Below are positions 7,535 through 63,718 of a DNA stretch of 64,000 nucleotides, in pieces (within the stretch, counting starts at the first letter, position 1; each line of letters begins with the position of its first letter). The position numbers were made by a program, and so were the translations under genes. Below the pieces are notes generated by a model that worked only from the letters and a program-made list of their open reading frames with translations, was not told the DNA's origin and ran no database searches. This DNA is from Anaerolineales bacterium. GTDB lineage: Bacteria > Chloroflexota > Anaerolineae > Anaerolineales > Villigracilaceae. The DNA is taken from positions 62,001 to 126,000 of the forward strand of contig JACZJC010000020.1 of NCBI GenBank assembly GCA_014860745.1. Reading direction: 5' to 3'.

Positions 7535-8665
7535 ATGCAAAAGACTCTAAGGATCGTATCGTTGTTGCTTTTGACAAGCCTTGTGCTTGCCGCATGCGGT
7601 GGGTCTGATCCCACCACCTCAACTACCGGTGGCGATTCCCCGCCTGCTGTTGAAACAGTGATTGTTGAAGTGACCTCTTCAGCGCCGGCAGTGGTTGCGC
7701 CTGCAGGCTATGGAGTGACCCTTGAAACCGTCAAAGCGCGTGGTAACCTGATCTGCGGCGTCAACTCCCAGGTCCCTGGCTTTGGGTATGTTGATGCAGA
7801 CGGAAAATTTTCCGGCTTTGATGTAGATTACTGCCGCGCCCTTGCGGCCGCCATATTTGGCGATGAAACCAAAGTGGAGTTTCGCCCCGTAACAGCCGCG
7901 GAACGCTTCACTGCCCTGCAGTCTGGTGAAATTGATGTCCTCAGCCGCAATACCACCTGGTCGCTGGTTCGCGATACCGAGCTCGGCACCAACTTCGTCC
8001 ACACCACTTTCTATGATGGTCAGGGCATGATGGTTCCCACCGAAAGCGGAATCACATCCTTACAGGACCTGGCTGGCGGTACAATTTGCGTCCAAACTGG
8101 TACGACCACCGAACTGAACCTGGCCGATGTGATGGCTTCTTTGGGGATCTCCTACACGCCCGCGGTCTTTGAAGACGCTGATTCCACCTTTGCCGCATAT
8201 GCAGAAGAACGCTGTGACGCCGTCACGACCGACAAGTCCGGTCTCGTGTCCCGCCGCACCGTCCTGGCTGACCCAGCGGCTCACGTAATTCTCGATGTGA
8301 CCATGTCCAAGGAGCCTCTTGGTCCATTGGTTCGTCATGGCGATGATCAGTGGTTCGATATCGCCCAGTGGACCGTCTTCGCCTTGTTTGCCGGCGAAGA
8401 ATTTGACATCACCTCCGCGAATGTGGACAGCGTCAAAGCCAGTGCCACTGCACCTGAGATCATGCGCCTTCTGGGTATCGAAGGCGATATGGGCTTGAAA
8501 CTCGGTTTAGACAACAACTGGGCATACAACATCATCAAGCTCGTCGGCAACTACGAGGAAGTGTACAACCGCAATCTCGGTCCGGACACTCCCACCTATA
8601 TTCCGCGCGGCTTGAACAGCCTGTACACCGATGGCGGCTTGCTCTACGCTCCGCCCGTCCGCTAA
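7535..8665 (+). CDS. aapJ: amino-acid ABC transporter substrate-binding lipoprotein
   Basis: A 376-residue extracytoplasmic binding protein. The signal ends in the lipobox LVLAACGG, followed by a Thr/Ser/Pro linker and a family 3 amino-acid binding domain. Typical signatures include LICGVNSQVPGFGYVDADG near residue 72 and GFDVDYCRALAAAIFGD. It is the first gene of a four-gene importer and is separated from the permeases by a strong hairpin, consistent with higher expression of the binding protein. By closest family (AapJ/BztA) it would bind polar L-amino acids, but specificity cannot be read from sequence alone. Confidence 0.9.
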   Translation: MQKTLRIVSLLLLTSLVLAACGGSDPTTSTTGGDSPPAVETVIVEVTSSAPAVVAPAGYGVTLETVKARGNLICGVNSQVPGFGYVDADGKFSGFDVDYCRALAAAIFGDETKVEFRPVTAAERFTALQSGEIDVLSRNTTWSLVRDTELGTNFVHTTFYDGQGMMVPTESGITSLQDLAGGTICVQTGTTTELNLADVMASLGISYTPAVFEDADSTFAAYAEERCDAVTTDKSGLVSRRTVLADPAAHVILDVTMSKEPLGPLVRHGDDQWFDIAQWTVFALFAGEEFDITSANVDSVKASATAPEIMRLLGIEGDMGLKLGLDNNWAYNIIKLVGNYEEVYNRNLGPDTPTYIPRGLNSLYTDGGLLYAPPVR

Positions 8666-11113: not shown

Positions 11114-11131
11114 TTCCAAAGGAGATTTGTC

Positions 11132-11877
<746 letters not shown>

Positions 11878-11881
<4 letters not shown>

Positions 11882-11920
11882 TGAAACAGGACTGGGATTT
11901 CCCCAGTCCTGTTTCATCAA
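11878..11920 (+). terminator. operon terminator, 19-bp perfect palindrome
   Basis: A 19-bp perfect stem (11878-11896 with 11902-11920) and a 5-nt loop that starts inside the last codons of the ATPase gene. It is followed by a T-rich stretch. A second imperfect inverted repeat lies at 11,943-12,001, and nothing else was recognised before 12,045. Confidence 0.8.
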
Positions 11921-12044
11921 TATTTCTCTACGGTACACAGAAACCCTAAAGATCTGCTTTCCCTTCGTGAATTTGAGAATTCCCAAAAAGACCTTTAGGG
12001 TTTTTCACGAGAGAAATGTACGGTAGCGAAATCAATATTTGAAT

Positions 12045-12488
12045 TTATGTCTGAAACTCAGCAATTATTTCGCCGTTCACCCAGAGGGTGTATTTTCCAG
12101 TGGGGAAACTCCCAAGCGGAATGGTGACATCAAACGGCGCGAGAACCTGTGCGCAAATCACATCCGGGTCCGCCACGGAATACGCATCCACAACGACTTT
12201 ATTTTCTGAATTAGGCGGGCTGACCGCCACGCGTAGGTTGTGACAGGGTGTAGGTAAGCTGCCTGAGATGTGCAGCGAGAATTGCAGAGGGTAGCTTTCC
12301 AACGTAAGCAAACTCGCTTCTTCCACAAATGCCTTGCTGCGCATCAGGACTGAATCCGCCGGGCTGGGGAAGTACTCTCCGGGTTGCGACGTGGATGGGG
12401 TTTGATTGTTAGTTGTTTCGTCCATTGAAGGACCACACGCGTTGAGGGTGAACAGGAAAATGGCAGAGAGAAATATTATTTGTTTCAT
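12045..12488 (-). CDS. lipoprotein, paralogue 1
   Basis: A 147-residue exported protein. The signal peptide ends in FLFTLNACG, a clear lipobox. I placed the start at 12,488, where GGAG precedes ATG, rather than at an upstream in-frame codon. After a Ser/Thr/Pro linker comes a compact domain with LHISGSLPTPCHNLRV, a PP-N segment, DPDVICAQ and a C-terminal YTLWVNGE. The same landmarks are found in the neighbouring protein at 12,537, so the two are tandem duplicates. The three cysteines of the domain are conserved between copies. Function unknown; a small extracytoplasmic beta-domain is likely. Confidence 0.75.
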   Translation of the reverse strand: MKQIIFLSAIFLFTLNACGPSMDETTNNQTPSTSQPGEYFPSPADSVLMRSKAFVEEASLLTLESYPLQFSLHISGSLPTPCHNLRVAVSPPNSENKVVVDAYSVADPDVICAQVLAPFDVTIPLGSFPTGKYTLWVNGEIIAEFQT

Positions 12489-12536
12489 GTAGATCTCCAT
12501 GATTAAACAGACGAACTGCCCCAAATTTATGTTCCG

Positions 12537-12992
12537 TCAATAGGTGATGAAATCTCCCGCAAAACTTTCGTTAATCCAGACCGTATACCGCCCGTTGGAA
12601 TAAACCCCCAGCAGCAGGCTGGCTTCGAATTGCTGGAACACATTATCGCACTTGATGTCGGGGTCGATCAGGCTGTAGACTTCAATGTAGATTTGATATT
12701 CATCATTAGGCGGCGCCACATCGACCCGCAATTGATTGCACACGCTCGGCAGCGAACCTGAGATCTTCAGTTCCACGCGAAACGGGTCGAGGTCGAATCG
12801 TTCGATCAGTGTAGAGTTATTGATGATCGCGCCCGCCAGTTTCAGCCCGGCATCTGCGGTTTGCGGCCGGTACGGATTTTCCTCAATGACAATCCTCACG
12901 GGGATGGCAGTGGTCGCTGTCGGTTCCGGGGTGGGAAGGGCGATGCAGGCAGACAATAATAAAATGGGGAGGATGAAAAAGAGACGCTTCAT
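12537..12992 (-). CDS. lipoprotein, paralogue 2
   Basis: A 151-residue exported protein with lipobox LLLSACIA and a short proline-threonine linker. The start at 12,992 is preceded by AAAGGA. Its domain aligns by eye with the protein at 12,045: LKISGSLPSVCNQLRV, APPNDEYQIYIEVYS, DPDIKCDN and YTVWINESFAGDF. It is transcribed first and the paralogue follows 48 nt after it, so the pair probably forms one unit behind the thioesterase gene. I do not recognise the family. Confidence 0.75.
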   Translation of the reverse strand: MKRLFFILPILLLSACIALPTPEPTATTAIPVRIVIEENPYRPQTADAGLKLAGAIINNSTLIERFDLDPFRVELKISGSLPSVCNQLRVDVAPPNDEYQIYIEVYSLIDPDIKCDNVFQQFEASLLLGVYSNGRYTVWINESFAGDFITY

Positions 12993-13030
12993 TAAATCCT
13001 TTTGCGAATCATCCACGCTGCGGATTTTCT

Positions 13031-13471
13031 TCACGATCCGTTTTCTTTCAAGCTGACATTTTCGAATAGTTGAGGTGCAACGACATAGATCCCGCGTCCG
13101 CTTACGGCGACAGTTGAATCGGCCAGTTTGATTTCACCTGTCGAAAAGATTTTTCTTTCATCCACTTGAGTAATTCGCGCCTCCAAAGCGAGCGGCTGAT
13201 TTAGTGGAAGCGGTTTGTGATAGTTAATTTCGATATTCACCGCCGCCACTTTATGCCCTGCCGCCCAAACGACCAATCCCATGGCTTCATCCAGAATCGC
13301 TGCGGATGCACCACCGTGCGCATAGCCAGGTGGGCCTTGTTGAGCTTTGCTGAGAATGAAGTCGGATGCCATAACGCCATCCTCATCCACATACCAGGTG
13401 AGACCAATACTATGCGGGTTGTCTCTTCCGCAGACGAAACACCAACCGTGATAGGGGAGCTGCCTTTTCAT
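13031..13471 (-). CDS. PaaI-type hotdog thioesterase
   Basis: A 146-residue hotdog-fold protein with the PaaI-like motif YAHGGASAAILDEAMG, where the His-Gly-Gly and the following Asp/Glu form the acyl-CoA thioesterase site. The N-terminal WCFVCGRDNPHSIGL resembles thioesterases with an N-terminal Cys pair. I used the ATG at 13,471, since the alternative upstream codon is GTG and would overlap the divergent gene's promoter. The substrate is probably an acyl- or aryl-CoA, but specificity is not readable. Confidence 0.82.
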   Translation of the reverse strand: MKRQLPYHGWCFVCGRDNPHSIGLTWYVDEDGVMASDFILSKAQQGPPGYAHGGASAAILDEAMGLVVWAAGHKVAAVNIEINYHKPLPLNQPLALEARITQVDERKIFSTGEIKLADSTVAVSGRGIYVVAPQLFENVSLKENGS

Positions 13472-13497
13472 GCTTATTATTTTATCCGCTTTCGTGC

Positions 13498-51705: not shown

Positions 51706-54357
51706 TCAGCCTGACAGCCCCAAACGGGAGATCAACTTCCTCCAGGCCGCTCCCAGCCCGGTCTGTGGGAAGTGAAGCCCCATTGTGATACCAATGACCA
51801 GCACCACGCCGACCAGCGCCGCATCGAGGATGCTCAGCCATTGCTCGAAGCAATTGGCAAACAAACCCGTCGAGGCTTGCCCTTCAAAACAAGCCCTGCC
51901 TGTTTCAATGGGAATGTTTTGATCGAATAGTGCCTGCAACGCGGGATAGATGCTGTATTTATTACTGATGGCTTCGCTTGGTTCAATGACGGACGATGCC
52001 AGCCACTCCGCATTGTCAAGGATGTAAGCGCCATCTGCATTTAGAACAGCTTCGGCTAACACCGGCAGTTGGACGATTGCCAAAAGGACCGCGGTCAGAA
52101 TCAGGCGTTTTGCCCAGTTGGCCGCGCCAAGCTTCCAGCCTGCGACCGGTTGATCCATCAACCCGAAGCTCAGACCCAGCCCGGCGAGAAATGCCACCGC
52201 AAGAAATCGCGCGAAAATATTGAAGCTCAAACCACTTCCATTCATCCAGGCTACGAATCCGTTGGCGATGCAGAAACCAAACGCACCAAGCAGAATGGCA
52301 AGACCTCTTGCACGGCGCAATTGAGAAGGGGATATGTCTTGATAATCCTGCAGCATCAATGGCACTGCCAAAATCATGGCATAGGTCATTCCCAGTCCGA
52401 TGATGAATCCCCAATAGGAATTGATGGCAAACTCCGTTCCCATCGGTTGGGAATTGATGATGGCCAGCAGCGCGCGGAAAATTGCCAAAGCCAGCCCCGC
52501 GCCGAGCGCCCCGCCAAAGGTCCAGCGGCTGATGAGCTGACGGTTGCGATGGATGTGTTTTTTGGCGCGCCACCACCAGACTGCAACCCGATCTGAGTCG
52601 CTATCGAGTTCCTGATGCAATTTTCTTGCCGCTTCTTCATCGGCTTCTGCCAGCGCTCCAAGTAGTATCGTCTTCTGTCGGCGGCGGGATGTTCCGCTTT
52701 TCGTTTCGGGAAGGGCATCCCGAATCTTTTTGATGGCTAGTTCAGGGTCGAAGGCCAGCAATGCGAGCGCCGCTGTCTGGCTGGTCAACGAGTCGAAGGT
52801 GTGGGTAACGGCAGACCATTCCAAAGTTTTGATATCTTGAGGCGGCGGGTTGTGGAAAACAAAATCCAATCCCAATGCTTTTTCGGCAAGACTCATATCC
52901 GCGTCTTGGGCTGGATTCTCTTGAACCATTTTTAGCCAATTCATCCCGACGCGGCGAAGCTGCCTGACCCAGTGACCGGTATCCTGGTCGGTTTCGACTG
53001 CTGAACGCAGGAGTAAAACAGCATCCAGCGGAGAAAGAGTCAAAGAATCGCCGCCCAGTTTCAAGGTCTGGATTTGAAGCGGACTGGCCGGCGCTCCCAT
53101 GCGTGCCCAGCGCATCAACACTTCGCTCAAGGTTGTATCCATCTCGGAATTATTTTCCGCTGCGAGCCGCGCCTGTTCATCCGTCACCGGCGGAAAGATA
53201 TTGCCGCCTGAATTCCGCAGGTAAAGAACGGGCGCGCCCCAATCACGCGCTTTCGAATCAGCCCGATAGATGGCCAGCCGCGCCTGGGAGACAGCCTCAT
53301 CGATGGTGAGACCGGGAACAAGATATTCATATAATTTTGTAGCGAATAATTTTATGAGATCATCGTAGACCGAATATTGCATGGCAACAACCGCTGGAAT
53401 GCCGCCCCTGAGAAGGGCCATGGCTACGCTGCTCCATTGCCGGAAGGGATCCCGCTCGCCGGACTCGCAGGCATCCAGCACGACCAAACGGATATGGCCT
53501 TCCGAGAGCAGGCTGCTGAGGATATCCGCATGAACCACATCCGCCATATTGCGTTCATTGGCAAGAATGACCGCGCCGCGCCCTTGTTGTTTCCCGCCTT
53601 CTTCGCCGCCGTCCCGCTTGAAATCTCCATGTCCGCTGAAGTGAAAAATATCCGCGGATTCCTTTAGCATCTCATGAATGTCGTCCTGAGTGATACCCTT
53701 CGCCTCTCTTTCGAGATCGAAATCGGGGTGATACTCCGCTCTGACGCCGTTGACTTCCCGCAGTTTGCCCTTGATGGCGGTTTGTTCCTTTTTTAGATCG
53801 AGCCTGGGATATTTCTCGTACGGCTCCGGGCTGGCCATGGCCACGATCACACGTCGATTTGGGCTGGCGCGGAACGGCGCGGCAGGGACCGAGATCGCTT
53901 CATGGCGGACGATGGAGATTCGATAGTCCAGCGCCAGGTGATCGCCGGGGACGATTTCCCCGCTGTGCAGTTTGACCAGGGCGTATTCCCAGGGCAGGAA
54001 GGCAAGTTCCCGCACCAGCCTGAGGCGGATTCGTAATCCGTTGCCCTCCTGTTCCTGCACCTGGTGATAACAGCTTTGATACAACTGGCGCGCATACGGA
54101 GGCAGGATGAGGTCGCCGAGGCGGAGCGTTAGATTTTCGAAATCCTTTCGCGCGATATTTCTATTCGCCAGTTGTTTGCGCCATTCTTCAAGCTGGTCCC
54201 AATCCGGTATCGAAATTTTTTCGTCATGTTCGCCCTCTCCCACCGGCGAATCGAAGACGCGCAAACAGAAGCGGAGCGGCCGCCCTTTTGCGTCCGTTTC
54301 ACTCTCGTTGACGTAGTCGGTATAGATGATGAAGTCGCGGTAGTTGCGGATGGACAT
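51706..54357 (-). CDS. CHAT-domain (caspase-like) protein with C-terminal TM helices
   Basis: An 883-residue protein. Residues 1-110 are an N-terminal domain, 110-400 a CHAT peptidase domain with catalytic His243 in FHFSGHG and Cys297 in LDACESG, followed by DLIKLFATKLYEYL and VSQARLAIYR. Residues 410-610 are helical, and the C-terminal 250 residues carry about six transmembrane helices. CHAT domains are caspase/separase relatives that cleave proteins in bacterial conflict and cell death systems. Membrane anchoring of the protease is notable. No ribosome binding site is obvious. The promoter is at 54,495. Lies upstream of the SBP-like lipoprotein. Confidence 0.88.
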   Translation of the reverse strand: MSIRNYRDFIIYTDYVNESETDAKGRPLRFCLRVFDSPVGEGEHDEKISIPDWDQLEEWRKQLANRNIARKDFENLTLRLGDLILPPYARQLYQSCYHQVQEQEGNGLRIRLRLVRELAFLPWEYALVKLHSGEIVPGDHLALDYRISIVRHEAISVPAAPFRASPNRRVIVAMASPEPYEKYPRLDLKKEQTAIKGKLREVNGVRAEYHPDFDLEREAKGITQDDIHEMLKESADIFHFSGHGDFKRDGGEEGGKQQGRGAVILANERNMADVVHADILSSLLSEGHIRLVVLDACESGERDPFRQWSSVAMALLRGGIPAVVAMQYSVYDDLIKLFATKLYEYLVPGLTIDEAVSQARLAIYRADSKARDWGAPVLYLRNSGGNIFPPVTDEQARLAAENNSEMDTTLSEVLMRWARMGAPASPLQIQTLKLGGDSLTLSPLDAVLLLRSAVETDQDTGHWVRQLRRVGMNWLKMVQENPAQDADMSLAEKALGLDFVFHNPPPQDIKTLEWSAVTHTFDSLTSQTAALALLAFDPELAIKKIRDALPETKSGTSRRRQKTILLGALAEADEEAARKLHQELDSDSDRVAVWWWRAKKHIHRNRQLISRWTFGGALGAGLALAIFRALLAIINSQPMGTEFAINSYWGFIIGLGMTYAMILAVPLMLQDYQDISPSQLRRARGLAILLGAFGFCIANGFVAWMNGSGLSFNIFARFLAVAFLAGLGLSFGLMDQPVAGWKLGAANWAKRLILTAVLLAIVQLPVLAEAVLNADGAYILDNAEWLASSVIEPSEAISNKYSIYPALQALFDQNIPIETGRACFEGQASTGLFANCFEQWLSILDAALVGVVLVIGITMGLHFPQTGLGAAWRKLISRLGLSG

Positions 54358-54576: not shown

Positions 54577-56409
54577 TTAGCTTTTCCTCTTGTTGATCAG
54601 CAATTTACGGACGTGGCAGTACATATCGGCTTTGTTGTAATGTTTTTTATACCAGATTTGATTGGGGTCTTTGTTGTCGTTCAAGGTAACTTCCAGGGGA
54701 TTTCCGTTTTCGTCTGTCTTCTTAATTTCCGTGCTTTCCTTGTTGCGCCAATGGAAATGGTCGATCAGGCGGATCGCTTCGATGGCAAAAGCTGTGACTA
54801 CATCGTCATCGCGGATTTCGATCAGGTTGTCCCCGTTTTTTTGTTCGGGGTTATAAGCGAGGTTGCTCGAGCCGCAATAGACCACGCTGTCCTTGCCCCT
54901 GAAATCAACAACGATAAATTTATGGTGAATGTTATGACCGGCGATTTTCGCAACCTCGTTAAAAGGCGGGGGCAGCTTCGTTTCTGTCCCTTTACCGGAG
55001 ACTTTGACGCCTTTCTTTTCGCCCGGCTTATACAGTTTGATCCGCGAAGTATTGTCGGTGATCCCGTATGTGAAAATTTTGTCATCTTCCACCTGCTGGT
55101 TGACCGCGGAGAGGATGGTGCTGGCGCTGTCATCGTCCATGATGGCAAAAAGGACGTCGCTTCTGGCTTGCAGGATGCGGTTCGTGATCGAGTCGAAAAA
55201 TTGATCGGTGTACTTCTTGAGGTGTGGGGAGAAACGCAGGATCATATCTGGCATCCTGCCGGCCTTGATGACAAAGTCTCCCGCGGCGCTAGCCGAATTT
55301 TTGAAGCCGCTCATTTGCTCTTTGCCAAAGGATGCGTCGAAGGCGTCTGCATAGAGCTGGGCAACCTTTTTATTGTTGAACAGGACCACATGATTGGCGT
55401 TGATATACATCCCGTTTACGGTGAAATTGGTGGACCCCGTTAATACTTTAATCGCCTTTGCCGCCGCATTATTATTTCTCTGGATCATTACCTTGCTGTG
55501 CGCCAGACTTTGATAATGACCACGGAAAATGGCGCTGCTGCCCGTTGCCTCCCGCTTGAATAAGGATTCAAATTTGGCTTCGTAACTGTCCGCTTTTTTG
55601 TGTTCCCCCGCGTTGTCCAAAATAATGCGCAGCCGTCCCTGCTTTGCGAGCTTGATCATCTTTTCTACAACCACGGGTTCATTTAGATCGTAGGCAAAGA
55701 CGTCCAGTTTCAGGCCGGCGTTCTGAAGCGCTTCATCCAGAAACTCCATAATGTGGTCGCGGGCCTGCCATCCCAGATATTTATGCTGATCTTCAAAGGT
55801 ATAAGGGACATCTTCCTGCTTGTTGGTCTTCTTGTTGAATTTTTTGATGCTCCCCGACTTCGCCTTGACGTCAAAGATCAAGTCTTTGTTACCGGGGCGT
55901 AATTTGCTGTTGTTATTAAAACGGCGCGCATAGGCCTGGGACGAAATGAAGGCGCGCGTGAACCCCACCTGAACATCCCCATCTCGAAACGGACTGAGAT
56001 CGATTCTGACGCTTGCCGTCAGGGTCTCATCCAGCGGTTTCAGAATATCGTTTTCAAGATATCGCGGCGTGACATGGTAGGTATATTCACCGTAAAATGG
56101 TTTGCCAATGAAATGGTCTGTGTTCGGCACATGCACCCATCTAAAAAGTTGAAAAGGAGAATATTCACTGCTGAGCTTTTCCCACTTGTCAATTCCATTC
56201 TTCTCCAGGATTTCAGCAGGAAAGGCCAGGCGGTTCATCAGGAAATAAGATTTCCGGGTGCCCTGAGCCACCCGAAGGCTAAACCCGACAAAATTTTTCA
56301 GCAGGGATGGGTGGAGGTCGAAAGCCAGCAGGGTCATCGCATCCCCTTTATACGCCCGCACGCGGACAGCGATCTTGTTTCCAAGTTTTATCTGACCAGT
56401 TGCTTCCAT
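54577..56409 (-). CDS. phospholipase D-like protein
   Basis: A 610-residue protein with two HKD-type half sites. Half 1: LAHSKVMIQ (about residue 301-309), followed by LTGSTNFTVNGMYINANHVVLF; the usual Asp of HxKx4D is replaced (Gln/Arg at that place). Half 2: HHKFIVVDFRGKDSVVYCGSSNLAYNP (about 495-521), intact. Two such halves form one active site in the PLD superfamily, which includes phospholipases and nucleases. The N-terminal 200 residues are a beta-rich domain of unknown type. GGGAGAA precedes the start. Could be a phospholipase effector or a nuclease; sequence alone does not decide. Confidence 0.82.
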   Translation of the reverse strand: MEATGQIKLGNKIAVRVRAYKGDAMTLLAFDLHPSLLKNFVGFSLRVAQGTRKSYFLMNRLAFPAEILEKNGIDKWEKLSSEYSPFQLFRWVHVPNTDHFIGKPFYGEYTYHVTPRYLENDILKPLDETLTASVRIDLSPFRDGDVQVGFTRAFISSQAYARRFNNNSKLRPGNKDLIFDVKAKSGSIKKFNKKTNKQEDVPYTFEDQHKYLGWQARDHIMEFLDEALQNAGLKLDVFAYDLNEPVVVEKMIKLAKQGRLRIILDNAGEHKKADSYEAKFESLFKREATGSSAIFRGHYQSLAHSKVMIQRNNNAAAKAIKVLTGSTNFTVNGMYINANHVVLFNNKKVAQLYADAFDASFGKEQMSGFKNSASAAGDFVIKAGRMPDMILRFSPHLKKYTDQFFDSITNRILQARSDVLFAIMDDDSASTILSAVNQQVEDDKIFTYGITDNTSRIKLYKPGEKKGVKVSGKGTETKLPPPFNEVAKIAGHNIHHKFIVVDFRGKDSVVYCGSSNLAYNPEQKNGDNLIEIRDDDVVTAFAIEAIRLIDHFHWRNKESTEIKKTDENGNPLEVTLNDNKDPNQIWYKKHYNKADMYCHVRKLLINKRKS

Positions 56410-56648: not shown

Positions 56649-58289
56649 TTATTCGTTTATCAGCAAGGCATCTAAAATATCCTCCAATGCTTGAGAGTGG
56701 TTAACTTGAATAAATAATTTTTTGCCAATTTCAATTCGATATTCTAAATTCCTTAATGCATGAGATACGCCATCTTCTTTTGCAGAAATTGAACTCATTT
56801 CAAACATCATTTTTGCTCCAATAGGCCAGCTTTTGCCTGCTTGTTCGACGAGTTTGCTAGCTATGTTCTTGTTTGAAATGTAAAGATTGACTATCGTTAC
56901 CCCAGATTTTCGTAAAAGATTCGCCACGTCTGGTGCTGCGTTTTCCGTAAACTCTCCATCTGAAATAATGACAAGTACCTTTTGATGTTTAGCATATCTC
57001 TTATCTGTAAACCTGAGCGATACCTTTTTCAAGGTGTTGTAGATTGGAGTTGCACCAAACATAAAATCATCTGAATATATATCTTGCTCCAGAGCATCTG
57101 GTAAGATATTTGCTATATCCTTTATTGATCGAACTATCTCTCGGCTAGTGGATAAGTCAATCCATTCGTAAAATCGTTCTTTTGCTTTCTTCTTGAACGC
57201 ATCTTTGAAAATGTCGATAACTTTTATTTTGACAAACGGTCTTAGCTCATCCCAAACCACTTTTTTTACAACTTGTTTTGTGAAGTCTTCAACTTTTTTG
57301 TCGTTTAACTTTCCCTTGATAGCACGAGTAATAACTTTAAGCCTTCTTCGACTGAAAATCCACGTTCCAGTAATCTTTGGTTGTATATCTTCTTCCAAGT
57401 GTCCGTAAATTTTTTCAGCCAACATATAGGCTTTGTTCTCGTCAAAGGTGTCAAATACTGTTAAGGCAGCATGCCCCAATGTCAATAATTCCAATATTCG
57501 GCTACTTTGTTGAGAAACAAACTCATCTAATGTTTGGCGAATGTACTCTTCATATTTGTCAGCATTATTTTGAAAGATTTTTTCAGCCGCCTGTTTGATG
57601 TTTTCAGTGTACGAGAAACTCTCGTCGAACGATGTGAATTCAATTCGTTTCTCTGTTTCTGCTTTCCATTTCTTTAGTTTTTGGGTGTGGTGATTGAGCC
57701 ATCGATTGTTTAGCCATAAGGTTCTGCCAATTAATGCCTTCAACAAATTTCCTCGAAAACTATCGTTCAATCGTTTTAATGCTGTTGTTTGAAGACTCCC
57801 TCGTATATAAAATACAAAGTCGTCATATAAACTGTCTCGAAAATTTACTTTCTGTAATATCTGAGAAGAATAATTTGACCATTTCGCGCTTATTCGTTCT
57901 TCTATTTCCTGAAGTTCAACTTTTGTTGGAATGATTTCGGTCAGTGCCAGAATATCGCAAACAACAGTTGCGTCGGTCATGCTTTCTATTAATTGTTCTT
58001 GGGGTATTTCCCTGTTATTTGCCAAATCTACAAGTTGCCATTTTTTCATTGGACGCCTGAAGCCCATGCCAACACAAAATAAGTCAACGGTTTTTATATC
58101 GGGTTTGGATGCGTACAGAACTTTTATCTTTTTTGCTTGCCGATTTAGAGCCTCTTTGATTACTTCAATTTGTGGCATTCGTCTGCCGTCACGATTTTTC
58201 CAGTTGCGTCTCATTGAACTTGAAACGTCAATAACAAAACCAACTAAGGTAGGCTGGTATGATTTGGGAGGCAAAGAGTTGTCATTCAT
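56649..58289 (-). CDS. vWA-domain protein with large helical insertion
   Basis: A 546-residue protein, last gene of the AT-rich cassette. The vWA fold starts at residue 14 with the metal-site motif FVIDVSSSM (D21-x-S23-x-S25). It returns only near residues 406-490 with GATPIYNTL (the conserved Thr, about 414) and VLVIISDGEF (Asp, about 444). The roughly 290 residues between are charged and helical (e.g. KAETEKRIEFTSFDESF, KVVWDELRPFVKIKVIDIF). All three MIDAS elements are kept, so it can probably bind a divalent cation and a partner. There is no N-terminal tag like those of its four neighbours. Lies 3 nt after the preceding vWA-like gene, without a ribosome binding site, so it is probably translationally coupled. 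Confidence 0.8.
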   Translation of the reverse strand: MNDNSLPPKSYQPTLVGFVIDVSSSMRRNWKNRDGRRMPQIEVIKEALNRQAKKIKVLYASKPDIKTVDLFCVGMGFRRPMKKWQLVDLANNREIPQEQLIESMTDATVVCDILALTEIIPTKVELQEIEERISAKWSNYSSQILQKVNFRDSLYDDFVFYIRGSLQTTALKRLNDSFRGNLLKALIGRTLWLNNRWLNHHTQKLKKWKAETEKRIEFTSFDESFSYTENIKQAAEKIFQNNADKYEEYIRQTLDEFVSQQSSRILELLTLGHAALTVFDTFDENKAYMLAEKIYGHLEEDIQPKITGTWIFSRRRLKVITRAIKGKLNDKKVEDFTKQVVKKVVWDELRPFVKIKVIDIFKDAFKKKAKERFYEWIDLSTSREIVRSIKDIANILPDALEQDIYSDDFMFGATPIYNTLKKVSLRFTDKRYAKHQKVLVIISDGEFTENAAPDVANLLRKSGVTIVNLYISNKNIASKLVEQAGKSWPIGAKMMFEMSSISAKEDGVSHALRNLEYRIEIGKKLFIQVNHSQALEDILDALLINE

Positions 58290-58292
58290 AGA

Positions 58293-59279
58293 TTACTTTA
58301 GTGGGCTTACGATAATATCAATTAATTCATCCAACATCTCTTGTTGATTAAATTGCAATAGTAGTTTTGCTTTAGGTGGTACTTTCCAAGATTTTTCAAT
58401 CGCCATTTCTGAAATTGATTTTACAACTTTGCCTGTGCCTTCCAAATCAGATGCACATTTGATGAGTTGCTTTACTCCATAATCCCAATTGTCTTTTTCG
58501 GCGGCGTATAAAACTCTTGACTCTAGTTCTGTGTCGCCAATATAACCGAAGATTAACTCAATCCCAGATTGCTTGATTGAATTACAGGTTGTCGATAATT
58601 GGTTTGCATCACCATCAGTGAATTTGCCGCTACATATTACCAATAACATTGGATTCTGGTAATTTCTATTCTTCATTTCTTCAATCATTCTTGATTCGGC
58701 AGTTTGCAACGCTTTTATTAGGCAGGAGTTATTATCTCCCATATCCAATATTTGCGCTTCTATACTTTTCTTATAGATTTTCCAAGAGCGATTTAGTTGG
58801 GCTGCATTAGGTGTTGTTGGCAAACCTTCTAGTTTCGCAATCTCTTCAAGCAGATCCCTTACACTTTCTGTAGGAATATTCGTCTTTACTGCGGAAGTTA
58901 CGCCAATTCTCTCAAAGAAATTTGCTATACCTTTTCGTGCTTGCCCAAGTCCGAAGCCGTATACAAAAAGAGAAAATCTTGGCAAAACATCTTTGGATTC
59001 AGGTGTTTTACAATAGGCAAGAGATTTTTCGACGAGCATATTCAAAGCTTTATTGAGACGCTCGGCAAATTCAGCATCCTTAGTGGATAGCTTATAGAGG
59101 GCCTTCAGCATAGGTTCTGACAAATCAATAATAACGCCTATGAGGAAAGGTGTTATTTCCTCATAGGCGTTATTTTCTGGCAGATTCTCAAGAGGCTCGT
59201 TGTTCGAAACGTGAAGATGAACGACATCGGCGTTTATCTGTGTATTAACTTTTTGTCCGCGCTGGTCATACTTGGTCAT
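58293..59279 (-). CDS. tagged, degenerate vWA-like protein
   Basis: A 328-residue protein. Residues 1-18 are the shared tag (MTKYDQRGQKVNTQINAD). From residue 45 on there is a vWA-like fold: IGVIIDLSEPM (D52-x-S54-x-P56, so the third MIDAS Ser is Pro), GDNNSCLIKALQTAE, and LLVICSGKFTDGD (no Asp at the usual SDG place). The metal site is therefore incomplete, unlike the next gene, which keeps it. The two probably form a pair. The start follows GAAGGG. Upstream neighbour is the Clp-N-like gene. Confidence 0.75.
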   Translation of the reverse strand: MTKYDQRGQKVNTQINADVVHLHVSNNEPLENLPENNAYEEITPFLIGVIIDLSEPMLKALYKLSTKDAEFAERLNKALNMLVEKSLAYCKTPESKDVLPRFSLFVYGFGLGQARKGIANFFERIGVTSAVKTNIPTESVRDLLEEIAKLEGLPTTPNAAQLNRSWKIYKKSIEAQILDMGDNNSCLIKALQTAESRMIEEMKNRNYQNPMLLVICSGKFTDGDANQLSTTCNSIKQSGIELIFGYIGDTELESRVLYAAEKDNWDYGVKQLIKCASDLEGTGKVVKSISEMAIEKSWKVPPKAKLLLQFNQQEMLDELIDIIVSPLK

Positions 59280-59317
59280 TGCAAAACCCTTCGTGCCTTT
59301 CCCATCGTTTATGCCTT

Positions 59318-59842
59318 TTAGCGATTTATTAAATCTAATCCCATCTCACTAACAATTTCATTAACTCTCTCCTCGGTTATTCCATTGTTGCGAAGGCGTG
59401 CAACTGAATTTCCAGTCCCGTATCTTGCAATATCAACCAATAAGTCTGCGCTGGATAACTTTCTCGCATTGGAAGCTTTTGGAGAAAGGTGCTTTAAAGA
59501 ATCTTCAACGCATCCTGAAAGCGTTGGATTCTCATCTAAAATTGTTCTCTCGGTTGTGATGCCTGTGTTTATCGGCTTTGGAAGTGCTTTTACGGGTACA
59601 TGTTTCAAGAATTCAGAAATTGATTCTGTGTTTAGCTTTGCCAACGCGGCAATTAGATATCGGGTTTTAATAACATTCACTCCATCTCTTCGCGCCTGAT
59701 TATATGCCATTGAAAACGCATCTTGTAGATCAGGTTCTAATTCATCCCAAACTTGATGGACTAGATTTGAAAGATGAATGTGAACATTTTCGGCGTTGAC
59801 CTGTGTGTTTACTTTCTGTTTGTGTTGGTCGTAATCCGCCAT
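59318..59842 (-). CDS. tagged Clp-N-like repeat protein
   Basis: A 174-residue protein. Residues 1-17 are the shared tag (MADYDQHKQKVNTQVNA). Residues about 30-165 form two helical repeats like the ClpA/ClpC N-domain: repeat 1 LQDAFSMAYNQARRDG ... IKTRYLIAALAKL, repeat 2 LSGCVEDSLKHLSPKASNARK ... SADLLVDIARYG. Clp-N domains recognise peptide or adaptor partners. There is no AAA module, so this is a stand-alone adaptor-like domain. Its start overlaps the stop of the small helical gene by one base (TAATG), so translation is coupled. Confidence 0.75.
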   Translation of the reverse strand: MADYDQHKQKVNTQVNAENVHIHLSNLVHQVWDELEPDLQDAFSMAYNQARRDGVNVIKTRYLIAALAKLNTESISEFLKHVPVKALPKPINTGITTERTILDENPTLSGCVEDSLKHLSPKASNARKLSSADLLVDIARYGTGNSVARLRNNGITEERVNEIVSEMGLDLINR

Positions 59843-60192
59843 TAAAAGACTCTTCTAATCATTTCTATTGCTTGCATAAATCCACCAACAAGCCCTGCCG
59901 CAGAAGTTAAACTCTCAATAATTGCTTTTGCTCCATTGATATAATCTAAAATGATTTGTTTGTTTGGCTGTGGCTTTTCCGCTTGAATTACCGCCTTTTT
60001 AATGTTGGACTCAACTTCAACACCGTTTTCTGCGTCAATTACTCCCGCCAATGTTGCTTTGGTTACTTCTTGAAGAAGCTTTTTTAATTCCAGAGCAACA
60101 TCTGCGCTGGTTGTTGCTCCTCCGAAGTTAAGATTGCCAGCAATATTGTATTGATAATTTACTTTTTGTCCGCGTTGGTCAAAAGTAGACAT
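59842..60192 (-). CDS. tagged small helical protein
   Basis: A 116-residue protein. The tag MSTFDQRGQKVNYQYNIAGN is followed by about 95 residues of helix: ELKKLLQEVTKATLAGVID, an acidic linker, AEKPQPNKQIILDYINGAKAIIES and a hydrophobic C-terminus (AAGLVGGFMQAIEMIRRVF). The end could insert in a membrane or pack in an oligomer. No known family. AAGGAG precedes the ATG. Confidence 0.7.
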   Translation of the reverse strand: MSTFDQRGQKVNYQYNIAGNLNFGGATTSADVALELKKLLQEVTKATLAGVIDAENGVEVESNIKKAVIQAEKPQPNKQIILDYINGAKAIIESLTSAAGLVGGFMQAIEMIRRVF

Positions 60193-60224
60193 GGTAATAC
60201 TCCTTGTTTGGTTGGATTAAATTC

Positions 60225-60743
60225 TTAATGGTTAAATCTAATTTTACCGCTTTGGTAAACCAAATCAATAACTTCCCCAGAGCTTATGGGAAATGAAAGA
60301 AAATCACCACTTTTTATTGCCAGCTCAGAAAAAGCTTCTGAATAATCTTTGGAACTAAACGGCACATATGGAAAATCAAGATGATATGCTAAAAATATTT
60401 CTCGCCTCCAAATCGTAGAGTTTTTAGTTACCGTAATTTTATACTCCCCAGGATTTACGTTGAATTTCACGGTGTCGCCAGGATTTATTTTAGCTGTGTA
60501 TTTGTCTTGATTATTACCGTGATATAAAAATACAACAAAATCAGGTTCTTCTTCTAATTTACCAATATCGACAAGTGAAACCCTTCCCTTGGTAAATTCT
60601 TTCGCCCAACGAGAAAAATACCTCTCGTTACCATTTGCAGTAACCCAAACGATAGCTGGCTTTTCATTTTCGCCTATATTTAGATTGCCAGCAACATTTA
60701 TCTGAGAACCAATATTTTGTTTTTTTTGGTCAAATGTACTCAT
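60225..60743 (-). CDS. tagged beta-rich protein
   Basis: A 172-residue protein, first gene of the AT-rich cassette. The tag MSTFDQKKQNIGSQINVAGN is followed by a beta-rich body with FVVFLYHGNNQDKYTAK, INPGDTVKFNVNPGEYKITV (a PEGA-like beta-sandwich strand pair) and YHLDFPYVPFSSKDYSEAF. No family assigned. GGAAGGAAT precedes the ATG. The extended -10 at 60,778 is its probable promoter. Confidence 0.7.
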   Translation of the reverse strand: MSTFDQKKQNIGSQINVAGNLNIGENEKPAIVWVTANGNERYFSRWAKEFTKGRVSLVDIGKLEEEPDFVVFLYHGNNQDKYTAKINPGDTVKFNVNPGEYKITVTKNSTIWRREIFLAYHLDFPYVPFSSKDYSEAFSELAIKSGDFLSFPISSGEVIDLVYQSGKIRFNH

Positions 60744-60777: not shown

Positions 60778-60786
60778 ATTATAGCA
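60778..60786 (-). promoter_or_regulatory. extended -10 promoter of the tagged cassette
   Basis: Minus strand TGCTATAAT (60,786-60,778), an extended -10 about 35 nt before the first start codon. No good -35 seen, as is common for extended -10 promoters. Confidence 0.5.
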
Positions 60787-60973: not shown

Positions 60974-63718
60974 ATGAGCAAAAAACTAACCGGCAACCAG
61001 ATCCGCCAGGATTTCATCGATTTCTTCGTCGAGCACGGACACACCGCCGTGCCGTCCATGTCACTTGTGCCGGGCGGGGATGCTACTCTGCTGTTCACCA
61101 ACTCGGGTATGGTGCAGTTCAAGGATGTGTTCATCGGTACGGATACCAAGCCCTACAAACGCGCTGTCGACTCGCAGAAGTGCATGCGCGTGGCAGGCAA
61201 GCACAACGACCTCGAAGACGTGGGCCGCGACGACACGCATCACACCTTTTTTGAAATGCTCGGCAACTGGTCCTTTGGCGATTACTACAAAAAGGATGCC
61301 ATCGCCTGGTCGTGGCAGCTGCTCACCGATGTGTGGGGACTTCCCAAAGATAAACTGTATGCCACTTGTTTCGAGGATGACAGCGGCGACATCCCTCGGG
61401 ACGATGAAGCGGCCGATATTTGGAAGGCTCAGCCCGGCTTCAACCCTGACCATGTTTTATTTTTTGGGCGCAAGGAAAACTTCTGGCAAATGGCAGAGTT
61501 CGGTCCCTGTGGGCCGTGTTCCGAAATTCACATCGACCTCGGCGAAGAGCGTGACAACCTGCGCGGTATAGACCACGTCTGTGGCGTAAACGGTGAATGC
61601 ACGCGCTTCCTCGAACTCTGGAACAACGTTTTCATTCAATACAATCTTTTCGAAGATGGCCGTCTCGAGCCGCTGCCCGCAAAACACGTTGATACCGGCA
61701 TGGGCTTCGAGCGTATCGTCTCCGTTCTGCAAGGCGTCGACTCGAACTACAAGACCGATCTCTTCACCGGTTCGCTCGAAGTTCTGCGCTCACTCACGGG
61801 TCACACTGAAAAGGAAATGCTCGCCGACTTCACGCCTTATCGTGTTATCTGCGACCACGCCCGCTCCGCCGCCTTCCTCATCGCCGATGGCGTTGTCCCC
61901 GGCAACGGCGGCCGCAACTATGTCACCCGCATGATCATCCGCCGCGCCGCGCGCTTCGGAACGAAGATCGGACTCAATGAACCTTTCCTCGCGAAGGTTG
62001 CTGAGTCGGTGATCACCTACTATGGAGATTTTTATCCCGAACTCGAAAAGAACAAAGCGACGATTTTGGATAATCTCACTCGGGAGGAAGTCCGCTTCGC
62101 TCGTACCGTTGAAGCGGGTACAGCTCATTTGCAGAATCACCTCGACGAGATTCGCTCCTCAAAAATATCCACACTCGATGGAAATATTGCCTTCGACCTG
62201 TACGCCACCTACGGCCTGCCCTTCGAAATCTCCCGCGATATTGCCCGCGAACAGGGGCTCGATATCGATGAAGCAGGCTTTACCGAAGCGAAGAATGAAC
62301 ACAGCACAGCCTCTGGCGGCGGCAAAGCCATGGGCAAACTCGGCGGCGAAGATTCGGAATTCTTTGCGAATATCCTGAAAGACCTGCAATCAGGTAGGGG
62401 CGGGGTCACCCCGCCCTTACTAGGCAAAGATGGCGTTGAATATGACCCATACAATAGCCCGCATGTGGAAGGGGAAGTGCTCGCCTTGATTGTCAACGGC
62501 GAATCGGTTTCCTCAGCAGCCCTCGATGATGTGGTCGAAGTCATCCTGCCCAAGACTGGGTTCTATATTGAAGCTGGTGGTCAGGTGAACGATGAGGGTT
62601 ATATTCGTTCTGTAGGGGCGGGGTCTTCCCGTCCTGTTGAATGGGAAATTGAAGTCACCGCCGTCCGCCGCGCTGCGGCTGGTATCATCACGCACATCGG
62701 GCAGGTCATTTCCGGTCAACCGAAAGTGGGTGATAAAGCCACCGCCGAAGTCAATATGACTCGCCGCCACAACATCATGCGCAATCACACTGCCACGCAC
62801 CTTCTGCACAAAGCGTTGCATCAAGTTCTTGGCGAGCATGCCCGGCAGGCAGGCTCACTTGTCGCGCCTACCCATCTCCGCTTCGATTTTACTCAACCCG
62901 ATGCAATGACCCCCGAACAAATCGATCGCGTCGAGAAGTTGGTCAATGAAGCGATTGCAGCGGATATGCCTGTGGTCAAAGCGACCAAGTCGTTGGATGA
63001 AGCCAAGAAAGAAGGCGCGATGGCGCTCTTCGGTGAGAAGTATGGAGAAACAGTTAGAACAATATCCATCCTCGAGGACGAGGATGATAAATTTTCCTAC
63101 GAACTTTGCGGTGGTACCCACCTTGACCGTACTTCGGACATTGGCGCGTTCATCATTGTCAGTGAAGGCTCGGCGGCAGCGGGTATTCGCCGCATCGAAG
63201 CGGTTACAGGTCGTGGAGCGTATGACCTCATCAATAAGCGCTTCAAGGCGTTGAAGCATACCGCCGGCATTTTGAAATCCTCTATCGAGGAAGTCCCTGC
63301 CAAAGTGGATGCCTTACAGGATGAAGTTTCCGACCTCAAAAAACAGCTTGCCGACCTGCGGATGCAGTCCGCGCTTTCCACATTCGATCTGCTGCTTTCC
63401 AACCTTAATAACGTGAAGGAAGTGAATGTTTTAGGCGTAGAGATTCCCAACGCGGATGTGGATACACTCCGCACCCTGGCCGATAAATTCCGCGAGAGAC
63501 ACCCGAAAGCTGGGGCGGCTGTTCTGGTTACCGGGACAACTGTCATTGCCGTGGTGACAGAGGATGTCGTCAAGAAAGGCTTGAAAGCCGGTGACCTTAT
63601 CACGGGCATTGGCGGAAAAGGCGGTGGTCGTCCCAACCTGGCACAAGGCAGCCTTATGGGAGATGTTAGAGAAGCGCTGGATAAGTTGACGAAGGTTATT
63701 GACGAGAAATTGAAATAA
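60974..63718 (+). CDS. alaS: alanyl-tRNA synthetase with two repeat-derived insertions
   Basis: A 914-residue enzyme charging tRNA(Ala). Class II catalytic core in residues 1-240 (LFTNSGMVQFKDVF, LGNWSFGDYY, GMGFERIVSVLQG), then the tRNA-recognition and editing domains with HTATHLLHKAL (HxxxH) and the zinc pair Cys/His in CGGTHLDRTSDIGAF. The C-Ala part ends in GGKGGGRPNLAQGS. Two short in-frame insertions look foreign: GRGGVTPPL (about residues 474-482) and VGAGSSRPVE (about 547-556), each encoded by a GTAGGGGCGGGG palindrome. Both lie in loops between conserved blocks. CGGAG precedes the ATG. A long palindromic terminator follows. Confidence 0.97.
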   Translation: MSKKLTGNQIRQDFIDFFVEHGHTAVPSMSLVPGGDATLLFTNSGMVQFKDVFIGTDTKPYKRAVDSQKCMRVAGKHNDLEDVGRDDTHHTFFEMLGNWSFGDYYKKDAIAWSWQLLTDVWGLPKDKLYATCFEDDSGDIPRDDEAADIWKAQPGFNPDHVLFFGRKENFWQMAEFGPCGPCSEIHIDLGEERDNLRGIDHVCGVNGECTRFLELWNNVFIQYNLFEDGRLEPLPAKHVDTGMGFERIVSVLQGVDSNYKTDLFTGSLEVLRSLTGHTEKEMLADFTPYRVICDHARSAAFLIADGVVPGNGGRNYVTRMIIRRAARFGTKIGLNEPFLAKVAESVITYYGDFYPELEKNKATILDNLTREEVRFARTVEAGTAHLQNHLDEIRSSKISTLDGNIAFDLYATYGLPFEISRDIAREQGLDIDEAGFTEAKNEHSTASGGGKAMGKLGGEDSEFFANILKDLQSGRGGVTPPLLGKDGVEYDPYNSPHVEGEVLALIVNGESVSSAALDDVVEVILPKTGFYIEAGGQVNDEGYIRSVGAGSSRPVEWEIEVTAVRRAAAGIITHIGQVISGQPKVGDKATAEVNMTRRHNIMRNHTATHLLHKALHQVLGEHARQAGSLVAPTHLRFDFTQPDAMTPEQIDRVEKLVNEAIAADMPVVKATKSLDEAKKEGAMALFGEKYGETVRTISILEDEDDKFSYELCGGTHLDRTSDIGAFIIVSEGSAAAGIRRIEAVTGRGAYDLINKRFKALKHTAGILKSSIEEVPAKVDALQDEVSDLKKQLADLRMQSALSTFDLLLSNLNNVKEVNVLGVEIPNADVDTLRTLADKFRERHPKAGAAVLVTGTTVIAVVTEDVVKKGLKAGDLITGIGGKGGGRPNLAQGSLMGDVREALDKLTKVIDEKLK
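62394..62420. repeat. REP-like palindrome inside alaS, copy 1
   Basis: GTAGGGGCGGGG (62,394-62,405), loop TCA, CCCCGCCCTTAC (62,409-62,420): a 12-bp stem with one G-T pair. In the alaS frame it reads through without a stop. Confidence 0.8.
62612..62637. repeat. REP-like palindrome inside alaS, copy 2 (degenerate)
   Basis: The same left arm GTAGGGGCGGGG (62,612-62,623), then TCTT and a diverged right arm starting CCCGTCCTG. Two mutations break the pairing relative to copy 1. It also stays open in the alaS frame. Confidence 0.7.

Follow-up and report, generated by a model that had tools for sequence, protein, structure and literature searches.

An AT-rich five-gene cassette in an Anaerolineales bacterium as a candidate amyloid-type signalosome without NLR

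In this study we analysed a window of 64,000 nucleotides (the whole stretch of DNA presented above) and found in it five tightly packed open reading frames on the minus strand, four of which code for proteins that begin with the same short motif, the FDQ tag. The genes and features are as follows:

60778..60786, minus strand: extended -10 box TGCTATAAT, candidate promoter of the operon, an exact match read from the sequence
60225..60743, minus strand: tagged gene 1, 172 aa, an open reading frame whose body has no assigned family
60669..60743, minus strand: FDQ tag of gene 1, MSTFDQKKQNIGSQINVAGNLNIGE, from the tag alignment and DNA pattern; aligns to a published amyloid peptide over 22-23 columns
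59842..60192, minus strand: tagged gene 2, four-helix protein, 116 aa, the usual partner of the tag family
60118..60192, minus strand: FDQ tag of gene 2, MSTFDQRGQKVNYQYNIAGNLNFGG, from the tag alignment, DNA pattern and tag HMM comparison
59318..59842, minus strand: tagged gene 3, 174 aa, body weakly resembling a Clp N domain
59768..59842, minus strand: FDQ tag of gene 3, MADYDQHKQKVNTQVNAENVHIHLS, same three sources
58293..59279, minus strand: tagged gene 4 (vWA2), a vWA protein of 328 aa
59205..59279, minus strand: FDQ tag of gene 4, MTKYDQRGQKVNTQINADVVHLHVS, same three sources
56649..58289, minus strand: gene 5 (vWA1), an untagged vWA protein of 546 aa

This layout agrees with an earlier note on the same DNA: genes 2 and 3 overlap by 1 nucleotide, genes 4 and 5 are 3 nucleotides apart, and the last gene codes for a vWA protein without the tag. 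The one extended -10 promoter that the note had named is found as an exact box at 60786-60778 and is retained as a candidate; a promoter scanner with a mandatory -35 box, which reported 14 promoter-like sites against 12.2 expected, missed it. The cassette is as AT-rich against its neighbours as had been noted, with a GC content of 0.375 (37.5%) compared with 0.541 in alaS and 0.509 in the whole window. The lowest value for any 4,095-base stretch to its left is 0.483 (48.3%), a comparison that covers the left flank, the right flank of 3.3 kb being too short. The GC contrast and the patchy distribution described below support the proposal that the cassette was laterally acquired.

The tag spans about 16-25 residues, and seven positions are constant in all four copies (M1, D5, Q6, Q9, Q14, N16 and A18). 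Alignment, DNA pattern and blastp all confirm this near-identical start of four neighbouring genes. The DNA pattern has 4 matches in the window and 0 in 100 shuffles, and a search of the bacterium's own genome returned the same four sites together with one partial match of 8 positions (E 5.8), which we take as chance. In whole-protein blastp among the four tagged proteins the tag is the sole shared region (E 2-3e-8 for genes 3/4, 1e-6 for 1/2, 2-5e-4 for 2/4 and 0.002 for 2/3, with weaker values of 0.014 for 1/3 and 0.04-0.07 for 1/4). That the bodies behind the tag are unrelated, as first proposed, thus holds among the tagged proteins themselves, but the tagged vWA2 has a paralogue in the untagged vWA1. 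A signal peptide is ruled out by the lack of a hydrophobic core, as read from the sequence.

Two of the tagged bodies resemble little else. The body of gene 1 reads as beta-rich; no family in Pfam or PADLOC matches it, the one NCBIfam match is far under the cut-off, plasmids gave none at E 0.1 and PDB sequences gave four chance-like matches (best E 0.32), and in the tag-bearing and related loci analysed only its tag region was matched. Gene 3 has no Pfam Clp_N (PF02861) match. Its profile comparison with Clp N domains gave an hhalign score of 24.8 (up to 19.1 in 30 shuffles; P 0.002) at a probability of only 13%, with the match extending over both repeats in three Clp N domains from the same genome, so that we speak of a weak resemblance. 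AlphaFold2 without an alignment gave no usable fold for gene 3 (pLDDT 42), and neither PDB sequences nor plasmids contained a match. Across 201 genomes of the phylum gene 3 had, apart from its self-match and the tag of gene 4, two weak candidates (E 0.003 and 0.007), one of which (L063) lies among ordinary-looking genes.

The two vWA proteins are, judging by their alignment, paralogues (blastp E 1e-6). vWA1 matches Pfam VWA (PF00092) with E 8.8e-6 and 26.5 bits against a cut-off of 23.8, whereas vWA2 stays below it (E 0.0099, 16.6 bits). The metal-site motif DxSxS is intact in vWA1 (DVSSS); the motifs of vWA2 are degenerate (DLSEP, CSGK). Full-length homologues of vWA1, 29% identical, occur in Ktedonobacterial relatives, where they adjoin a gene for a CHAT-vWA fusion whose vWA half aligns to vWA2 and which keeps DLSGS and SDGK. 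A search for gene 4 in 251 genomes matched only its own genome; since these CHAT-vWA2 relatives exist, that search was either insensitive or lacked them in its sample. No plasmid homologue of gene 5 was found.

For the gene 2 protein AlphaFold2 predicts four helices (residues 29-48, 54-72, 78-93 and 96-115) with pLDDT of about 90 in the body and about 50 in the tag. Homologues of this body were found by body-only tblastn in 22 of 28 distinct tagged loci; the search missed L030, L042 and L047, where only a multiple alignment brings the helical proteins into register. Hence the tagged four-helix protein is the usual partner of the tag. Its fold could not be assigned (best Foldseek E 0.63), and the absence of BELL, HeLo or Death-fold chains among the fold matches listed is uninformative. 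One plasmid homologue was found, on the Herpetosiphon plasmid pHAU02, and none in a viral collection searched with two helical sequences. The helical homologues on pHAU02 and in genome G180 carry motifs other than the FDQ tag, and in both cases the adjacent gene shares the exchanged motif (E 4e-9 in G180, 2.5e-4 on pHAU02) and is its best non-self match among 988 ORFs.

Beyond the window the tag family is widespread but rare. The tag occurs in 5 of 400 genomes of the phylum, the bacterium's own included, and 30 tag-bearing stretches reduce to 28 loci (L029/L046 and L045/L049 each being the same place) in Chloroflexi, cyanobacteria, Nitrospirota, a Lokiarchaeota MAG and others. The tagged genes do cluster, as the earlier note had wanted checked: in 28 genomes, all picked for having a tag, 47 of 59 tag sites have another within 5 kb, where random placement gave a mean of 0.16 and a maximum of 4 in 2000 trials. 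Two of the 59 sites (G403, 87087 and 87343) may be one gene, the genome of L040 was left out of this genome-wide search, and L053 (Microcystis) gave no match in it. At the level of loci, 23 of 28 have at least two tag sites within 5 kb. These 23 include L035, whose second site sits in an open frame of 37 residues, L037, L033 and L045/L049 with interrupted or short helical genes, and L032, whose partners are at least 2.8 kb off; the five with a single site are L039, L044, L050, L053 and L054. Among 45 distinct tag DNAs both synonymous codons are used about equally at invariant residues, hence it is the amino acids that are selected. The viral collection held four stretches with the tag pattern, two of them 16-residue stubs followed by a stop and two inside one phage-contig protein; they were left out of the counts.

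In other loci the tag sits on NACHT, AbiTii, caspase, TPR, pentapeptide or zinc-finger proteins, and those with NACHT, AbiTii, caspase or TCAD2 are of immune or cell-death type. A NACHT protein was seen in 3 of 28 tagged loci, once below the Pfam cut-off. Several tags lie inside proteins with no start codon before them (caspase-tag L023, TCAD2-tag L021, AbiTii-tag L042, L096 and L099). Other internal tags begin with ATG (L039, L044, L050 and L054), so an internal start is possible there. The tail of L042 and the tagged helical protein next to it share 48% identity.

By its sequence the tag is a relative of a peptide that aggregates. A tag HMM built without the window sequences scores the Methanothrix soehngenii motif AEB69175.1(5-29) at 31.1 bits, and the best of 1000 shuffles reaches 11.1. 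This motif is an unclassified NLR-side motif whose peptide aggregates, gives cross-beta-type FTIR spectra and binds Congo red, and which the BASS1-10 profiles missed (PMC8086366). The cassette shares two marks of amyloid signalling motifs, a short motif (about 15-40 aa) common to the proteins of neighbouring genes that otherwise differ in their domains, and sequence kinship to an experimentally aggregating member. A NACHT or NB-ARC partner gene, the mark of the NLR signalosomes of BASS type, is seen in some other tagged loci and not among the five cassette genes and the two downstream of them.

These findings suggest that four differing proteins with one tag assemble into one signalling complex that works without the usual receptor. 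We favour, as somewhat likelier than all other readings together, a laterally acquired amyloid-type signalosome without NLR, which would probably serve defence or cell death. The homotypic assembly or docking proposed earlier is well supported by the clustering of tag sites across phyla, by the exchange of the motif on the helical body jointly with its neighbour and by the cross-beta aggregation of a peptide of the same family. The proposed core of two vWA proteins and a Clp-N-like adaptor fares less evenly: the vWA pair is a two-gene unit that recurs in the Ktedonobacterial relatives, but elsewhere it is the four-helix protein that usually accompanies the tag, and gene 3 is at most a putative Clp-N-like adaptor. 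We infer amyloid formation by the four tags, the direction of signalling, the trigger and a role in killing as follows. At rest the tags would be disordered. A trigger would be sensed by vWA2 and vWA1 as a pair, with the Clp-N-like or the beta-rich protein perhaps taking part, upon which the tag of vWA2 would be exposed or concentrated and nucleate a cross-beta fibre. Onto this fibre the four-helix, Clp-N-like and beta-rich proteins might then add their own tags, and different bodies would therefore be united by induced proximity. The four-helix protein would be the constant output module, and in a defence response it would most likely carry out the growth arrest or cell death.

Several observations count against the signalosome. 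No NLR or other NTPase was found by Pfam scan in the five cassette genes and two downstream genes. AEB69175.1(5-29) passes pHMM and some grammars and lies under threshold in PASTA2, AmyloGram and ArchCandy (PMC8086366). Helix 4 of the gene 2 protein is not clearly membrane-spanning by its predicted hydrophobicity (19-residue Kyte-Doolittle maximum 1.31, and 0.76-1.75 across 23 alignment rows), the tag is at its N-terminus as against the C-terminus of described effectors, and VIA-align finds only generic four-helix bundles (Z up to 11.3, below the warning level of about 13 for bundles). Judged against 988 ORFs, the motif shared on the Herpetosiphon plasmid gives only a weak match (E 0.014), and 12 of 59 tag sites are unclustered, four of them weak sites in G214. 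The earlier note had named as contrary outcomes a lack of co-occurrence of the five genes and a tag absent from homologues of the bodies; in part this is what we see, as among the searched genomes the five genes occur together only in this window, and the vWA homologues found carry CHAT, with no tag in the four genomes that have vWA1 homologues. Finally, in nine of 30 stretches an untagged membrane protein (hydrophobicity maximum 3.0) stands behind a tagged TPR-like gene, therefore not all partners are tagged.

That membrane protein also belongs to the strongest alternative, in which the tag is a docking peptide and not an amyloid, and tagged proteins bind one site on a scaffold (vWA1 in the window, elsewhere the membrane protein) to give a stoichiometric complex or condensate. 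A short, polar tag predicted to be disordered in the monomer, found on four different bodies, suits such client-scaffold logic, and vWA1 is an untagged candidate scaffold. However, aggregation with cross-beta-type spectra is on record for a peptide of this family, the simultaneous exchange of the motif on both neighbours suits self-templating better, and at E 1e-3 the other stretches lack the membrane protein, thus there is no one constant scaffold; we consider docking unlikely, at about one chance in five. Less probable still is a vWA regulatory or chaperone complex of MoxR-vWA or TerY type without a role in cell death, in which the tag would set stoichiometry only. Two vWA proteins (one with an intact metal-site motif), a weak match of vWA2 to TerY (PADLOC E 0.021) and DnaJ-type and TPR partners in other loci speak for it, but there is no MoxR or other AAA gene among seven neighbouring proteins in a Pfam scan, the Ktedonobacterial counterpart carries a CHAT protease, and AbiTii, caspase and NACHT proteins are found among the tagged relatives. 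That the tag has no function as protein and reflects recent shuffling of one 5' end (the translation start region) among neighbours is very improbable: the tag DNAs of genes 2 and 4 agree at 22 of 24 bases in one stretch, so local copying is plausible, but the tag is conserved as protein across phyla with mixed synonymous codons, and the internal tags without a start codon in the main refute a translation-start artefact.

It might be that the FDQ motif serves as an exchangeable amyloid plug in a general, NLR-free class of prokaryotic signalosomes, a proposal we make tentatively and hold to be somewhat less than an even bet. A constant four-helix hub would then be coupled to any sensor or effector (vWA pair, TPR, AbiTii, caspase or NLR) through exchange of its N-terminal motif of 25 residues. 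In the window the plug would have taken the place of a covalently fused CHAT protease, so that an effector acting in cis would have become an assembly of several proteins in trans. The exchange of CHAT for tag suggests a way in which covalent effectors turn into recruited ones, or recruited into covalent ones, and the motif exchange on one helical body offers a clean experiment on specificity. A 2021 review (PMC7889193) asks whether NLR-independent bacterial pathways use signalling amyloids and suggests that RHIM, in contrast to other motifs, might function from a central position. Because a NACHT protein was seen in only 3 of 28 tagged loci and several tags are internal, the window locus and its relatives are concrete candidates for both.

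Compared with the NLR-associated BASS and other amyloid signalling motifs (PMC8086366, PMC7889193), the cassette has a tag of the same family, shared by products of adjacent genes; NACHT receptors of K. racemifer and of a Chloroflexi MAG carry it too. The cassette differs in that it lacks an NLR, has four tagged proteins in place of two, bears the motif at the N-terminus of the helical effector candidate and belongs to a family whose partners include vWA, AbiTii, TPR, zinc-finger and pentapeptide proteins. According to PMC7889193, BASS motifs also accompany CHAT or TIR domains, less often, and described bacterial effectors carry the amyloid motif at the C-terminus. The BELL domain, compared by its description in that review, is likewise a small alpha-helical bundle and usual partner of an amyloid motif, but it has a transmembrane helix and a C-terminal motif, whereas the gene 2 protein has an N-terminal motif and an only moderately hydrophobic last helix. 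In AbiTii (PF18864) proteins of L044, L054 and L042 the AbiTii domain is followed by tag and helical body in one protein, whereas none of seven window proteins scanned with Pfam is an AbiTii. The Ktedonobacterial pairs (L121, L122 and L123) agree with the window in both vWA proteins and in their order, with an N-terminal CHAT protease where vWA2 has the FDQ tag. The MoxR-vWA ternary conflict systems with EAD adaptors, as outlined in PMC7159879 and PMC8195603, also have a vWA component and an adaptor joining sensor and effector polypeptides, but the window has no MoxR among seven proteins, and its adaptor is a 25-residue motif and not a folded EAD or Death-like domain; by term search of the two texts, 'amyloid' is absent from the former and occurs once in the latter, in a reference. 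In conclusion, the principle of the signalosome is known, and its NLR-free, four-member, vWA-based form appears to be new.

Between a PLD-like gene and alaS sit five closely packed minus-strand genes (the cassette), and four of their five proteins share the start M-x-x-[FY]-D-Q-x-x-Q-x-[VI]-x-x-Q-x-N (the FDQ tag).

Features of the cassette and its flanks
54577-56409, minus strand (same as cassette): PLD-like gene, left flank
56649-58289, minus strand: gene 5, untagged vWA protein (vWA1)
58293-59279, minus strand: gene 4, tagged vWA protein (vWA2)
59318-59842, minus strand: gene 3, tagged, weakly Clp-N-like
59842-60192, minus strand: gene 2, tagged four-helix ("helical") protein
60225-60743, minus strand: gene 1, tagged, beta-rich
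60974-63718, plus strand: alaS, right flank

The earlier note had placed four tagged genes in an AT-rich block, and this was borne out: the tag DNA pattern matched 4 times in the window versus 0 in 100 shuffles, and the cassette has 37.5% GC versus 54.1% in alaS, 48.7% in the PLD-like gene and 55.1% in the CHAT gene beyond it. Left of the cassette, GC reaches a minimum of 48.3% over any stretch of cassette length. A genome-wide search found no further convincing tag copy in the remainder of the window's own genome. The two vWA proteins named in that note are present, but they are paralogues of each other (vWA2 against vWA1, blastp E 1e-6), and its Clp-N label for gene 3 is suggestive at most. 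Within the vWA2 gene, where the tag linker meets the vWA domain, lies a perfect 19-bp inverted repeat (59130-59174, minus strand); folding of the RNA around it beats 198 of 200 shuffles (z -3.0), and it could be a fusion scar or an attenuator.

The tag is a rare family. Scanning a genome collection for a start codon followed by the tag (about 41 bits; with equal base frequencies, an estimated 0.2 matches would arise by chance) yielded 30 stretches, representing 28 distinct loci, many of them from MAGs. Their titles name Chloroflexi, Anaerolineales, Ktedonobacter, various cyanobacteria, Desulfocapsa, Desulfococcaceae, Nitrospiria/Nitrospirota, Thiomargarita, Thiotrichales, Gammaproteobacteria, Pyrinomonadaceae, Chitinophagaceae and Lokiarchaeota. 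We found the tag in 5 of 400 genomes of the window's phylum, Chloroflexota, its own genome counted (a 4-row model gives the same count). Among 292 genomes from the phylum to which cyanobacterium G402 belongs, G402 alone had it. At 23 of the 28 loci at least two tag sites lie inside 5 kb. Since the 29 genomes searched whole (28 of which matched the tag model) were picked for having a tag, clustering and not frequency is the result of that search: 47 of 59 tag sites had another within 5 kb, whereas random placement gave a mean of 0.16 clustered sites and a maximum of 4 in 2000 trials.

A literature text search with the tag strings FDQRGQ, YDQRGQ and FDQRNQ led to one paper, PMC8086366. It describes a BASS3-like motif on the NLR side, residues 5-29 of Methanothrix soehngenii AEB69175.1, which was first detected via pairwise alignment of neighbouring genes and was missed by the BASS1-10 profiles; the synthesised peptide gave cross-beta-type infrared spectra and Congo red staining, despite being sub-threshold in PASTA2, AmyloGram and ArchCandy. 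Against a tag HMM built without window sequences, this peptide scores 31.1 bits (best of 1000 shuffles, 11.1), and its alignment covers 20-23 columns for the gene 1 and gene 2 tags, 14-16 for those of genes 3 and 4. Because of this HMM kinship to an aggregating peptide we take the tag as a probable amyloid signalling motif, and the window's own four tags would, by analogy, form amyloid.

The usual partner is the helical protein (116 residues), homologues of which, queried with the body only, occur at 22 of the 28 loci. Aligned relatives show 64% identity in Anaerolineales UBA7227 and 41-51% at nine cyanobacterial loci. An AlphaFold2 model from a 23-row alignment folds the body into a four-helix bundle (pLDDT near 90) and leaves the tag disordered; structure searches returned no specific fold relative of the body, and the PADLOC candidate family PDC-M14B matched weakly (E 1.6e-5). 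In Ktedonobacter robiniae (L018, 7215-11074 and 11118-15529) the tagged helical gene is apparently interrupted by a roughly 3 kb insertion, and behind the tagged ORF come first a transposase-like ORF and next a NACHT ORF; this copy thus looks inactivated.

A search of 201 genomes with the full-length helical protein as query gave two further homologues, in genome G180 and on Herpetosiphon plasmid pHAU02, both lacking the FDQ tag; the tag model had no match in either genome. In G180 the helical protein opens with a different motif, whose counterpart in the neighbouring gene sits ahead of the NACHT domain (56% over 34 residues, E 4e-9), and on pHAU02 a third motif is common to Haur_5292 (helical) and Haur_5291 (50% over 20 residues, E 2.5e-4). 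Among 988 ORFs of the compared loci, the adjacent gene is the top non-self match of both motifs (G180 E 4e-8, Herpetosiphon E 0.014). For the G180 motif, FDQ-tagged proteins come next (E 0.03 or worse), hence it may be a distant cousin of the tag. A simultaneous motif change on both neighbours is what self-templating would predict; there are only two such cases, of which one is weak.

Elsewhere the tag is attached to many different bodies, and only a minority of the partners observed are NLRs.

Partners elsewhere (bodies assigned by Pfam)
K. racemifer: tagged NACHT
Chloroflexi MAG of L032/L096: two NACHT/FGE-sulfatase proteins
K. robiniae: NACHT ORF (below cut-off) downstream of the tagged ORF, with a transposase-like ORF in between
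Pyrinomonadaceae MAG, Anaerolineales MAG: AbiTii, then tag and helical body in a single protein
Lokiarchaeota MAG: AbiTii-tag-helical single protein adjoining a tagged helical gene
Nine loci: tagged TPR-like protein (165-175 residues), then untagged membrane protein
Two Nitrospirota-type MAGs: clear TPR proteins
UBA7227: DnaJ-type zinc fingers scoring at or close to cut-off
Cyanobacterial MAG: SH3 protein
Further tagged loci: coiled-coil or unassigned bodies
Genomes G359 and G214 (outside the 28 loci; tags weaker, single or scattered): caspase-tag protein and TCAD2-tag protein
Thiomargarita and Thiotrichales MAGs: pentapeptide-tag proteins
Same Thiotrichales MAG: EAD7-like (below cut-off)/tag/P-loop fragment

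At L096 one tagged helical gene is accompanied by two tagged NACHT genes (5548-8298 and 10424-13483) whose products carry an FGE-sulfatase domain at the C-terminus, and one effector may be common to two receptors. In UBA7227 (L052, 1973-2616) the helical gene is followed by two tandem, near-alike tagged zinc-finger genes (DnaJ CXXCXGXG-like), probably a duplicated partner. Only some of the nine TPR-like proteins reach the TPR cut-off. The conserved untagged membrane protein of about 260 aa that follows (L031 5145-5924; Kyte-Doolittle 3.0) has relatives at L029, L034, L038, L040, L047, L055, L056 and L058; for the one of the nine scanned, nothing from Pfam, PADLOC or NCBIfam passed the cut-off. 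One Thiotrichales MAG has four scattered tag sites (L050, L097 7545-8249, L098 7396-7917, L099 465-854), one between an EAD7-like stretch and a P-loop and one beside a Wadjet JetD gene; tags may thus pair with folded effector-associated domains as well as with GDxVGRDK-type stretches.

Of 201 genomes, 4 besides the window's own hold homologues of vWA1; these four belong to a single genus, in the same family as K. racemifer. At L121, L122 and L123 (two genomes) a gene that fuses a CHAT protease to a vWA2 homologue lies ahead of the vWA1 homologue; in the two fusions scanned with Pfam the CHAT part has E 5e-9 and 7e-12, and blastp against vWA2 gives E 3-4e-8 over vWA2 residues 24-328 in L122 and L123, piecemeal in L121. 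Part of the region is masked in G148, where CHAT and the vWA1 end are present; G050 yielded only fragments, and no CHAT was recognised there. The tag had no match at E 0.01 in these genomes. The metal-site motifs DLSGS and SDGK are kept in the fusions and lost from the window's vWA2. Since CHAT occupies the N-terminal place of vWA2 in these relatives, the alignments put the tag where the protease stands. We infer a control-module role for the vWA pair, which would govern a protease in cis in the relatives and tagged proteins in trans in the window. Past the cassette, on its strand, lie an untagged CHAT protein with hydrophobic C-terminal stretches and higher GC (51706-54357) and the untagged PLD-family protein (54577-56409; PADLOC DrmC E 1e-10; GC above the cassette's). 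The CHAT-vWA fusions in other genomes make a functional link of both with the cassette possible.

Taken together, the tag family, its clustering, the motif exchange, the kinship to an aggregating peptide and the alternation of CHAT and tag make an amyloid-type signalosome without an NLR the best explanation of the cassette, one we hold with moderate confidence, slightly reduced by the recurrent untagged membrane protein at nine loci. A trigger would act on the vWA2/vWA1 pair, the vWA2 tag would nucleate a fibre, and the fibre would recruit the helical, Clp-N-like and beta-rich proteins. The helical protein would be the executioner, the least certain step, as its helix 4 is only moderately hydrophobic and not clearly a membrane span.

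In the literature searched we found no description of this NLR-free arrangement; the tables of the first BASS publication (J Mol Biol 2020) may already contain some of the motif's distribution. The review PMC7889193 describes the bacterial motif search as biased to NLR settings and poses the existence of NLR-independent motifs as a question. Amyloid signalling between neighbouring gene products is itself already known in kind.
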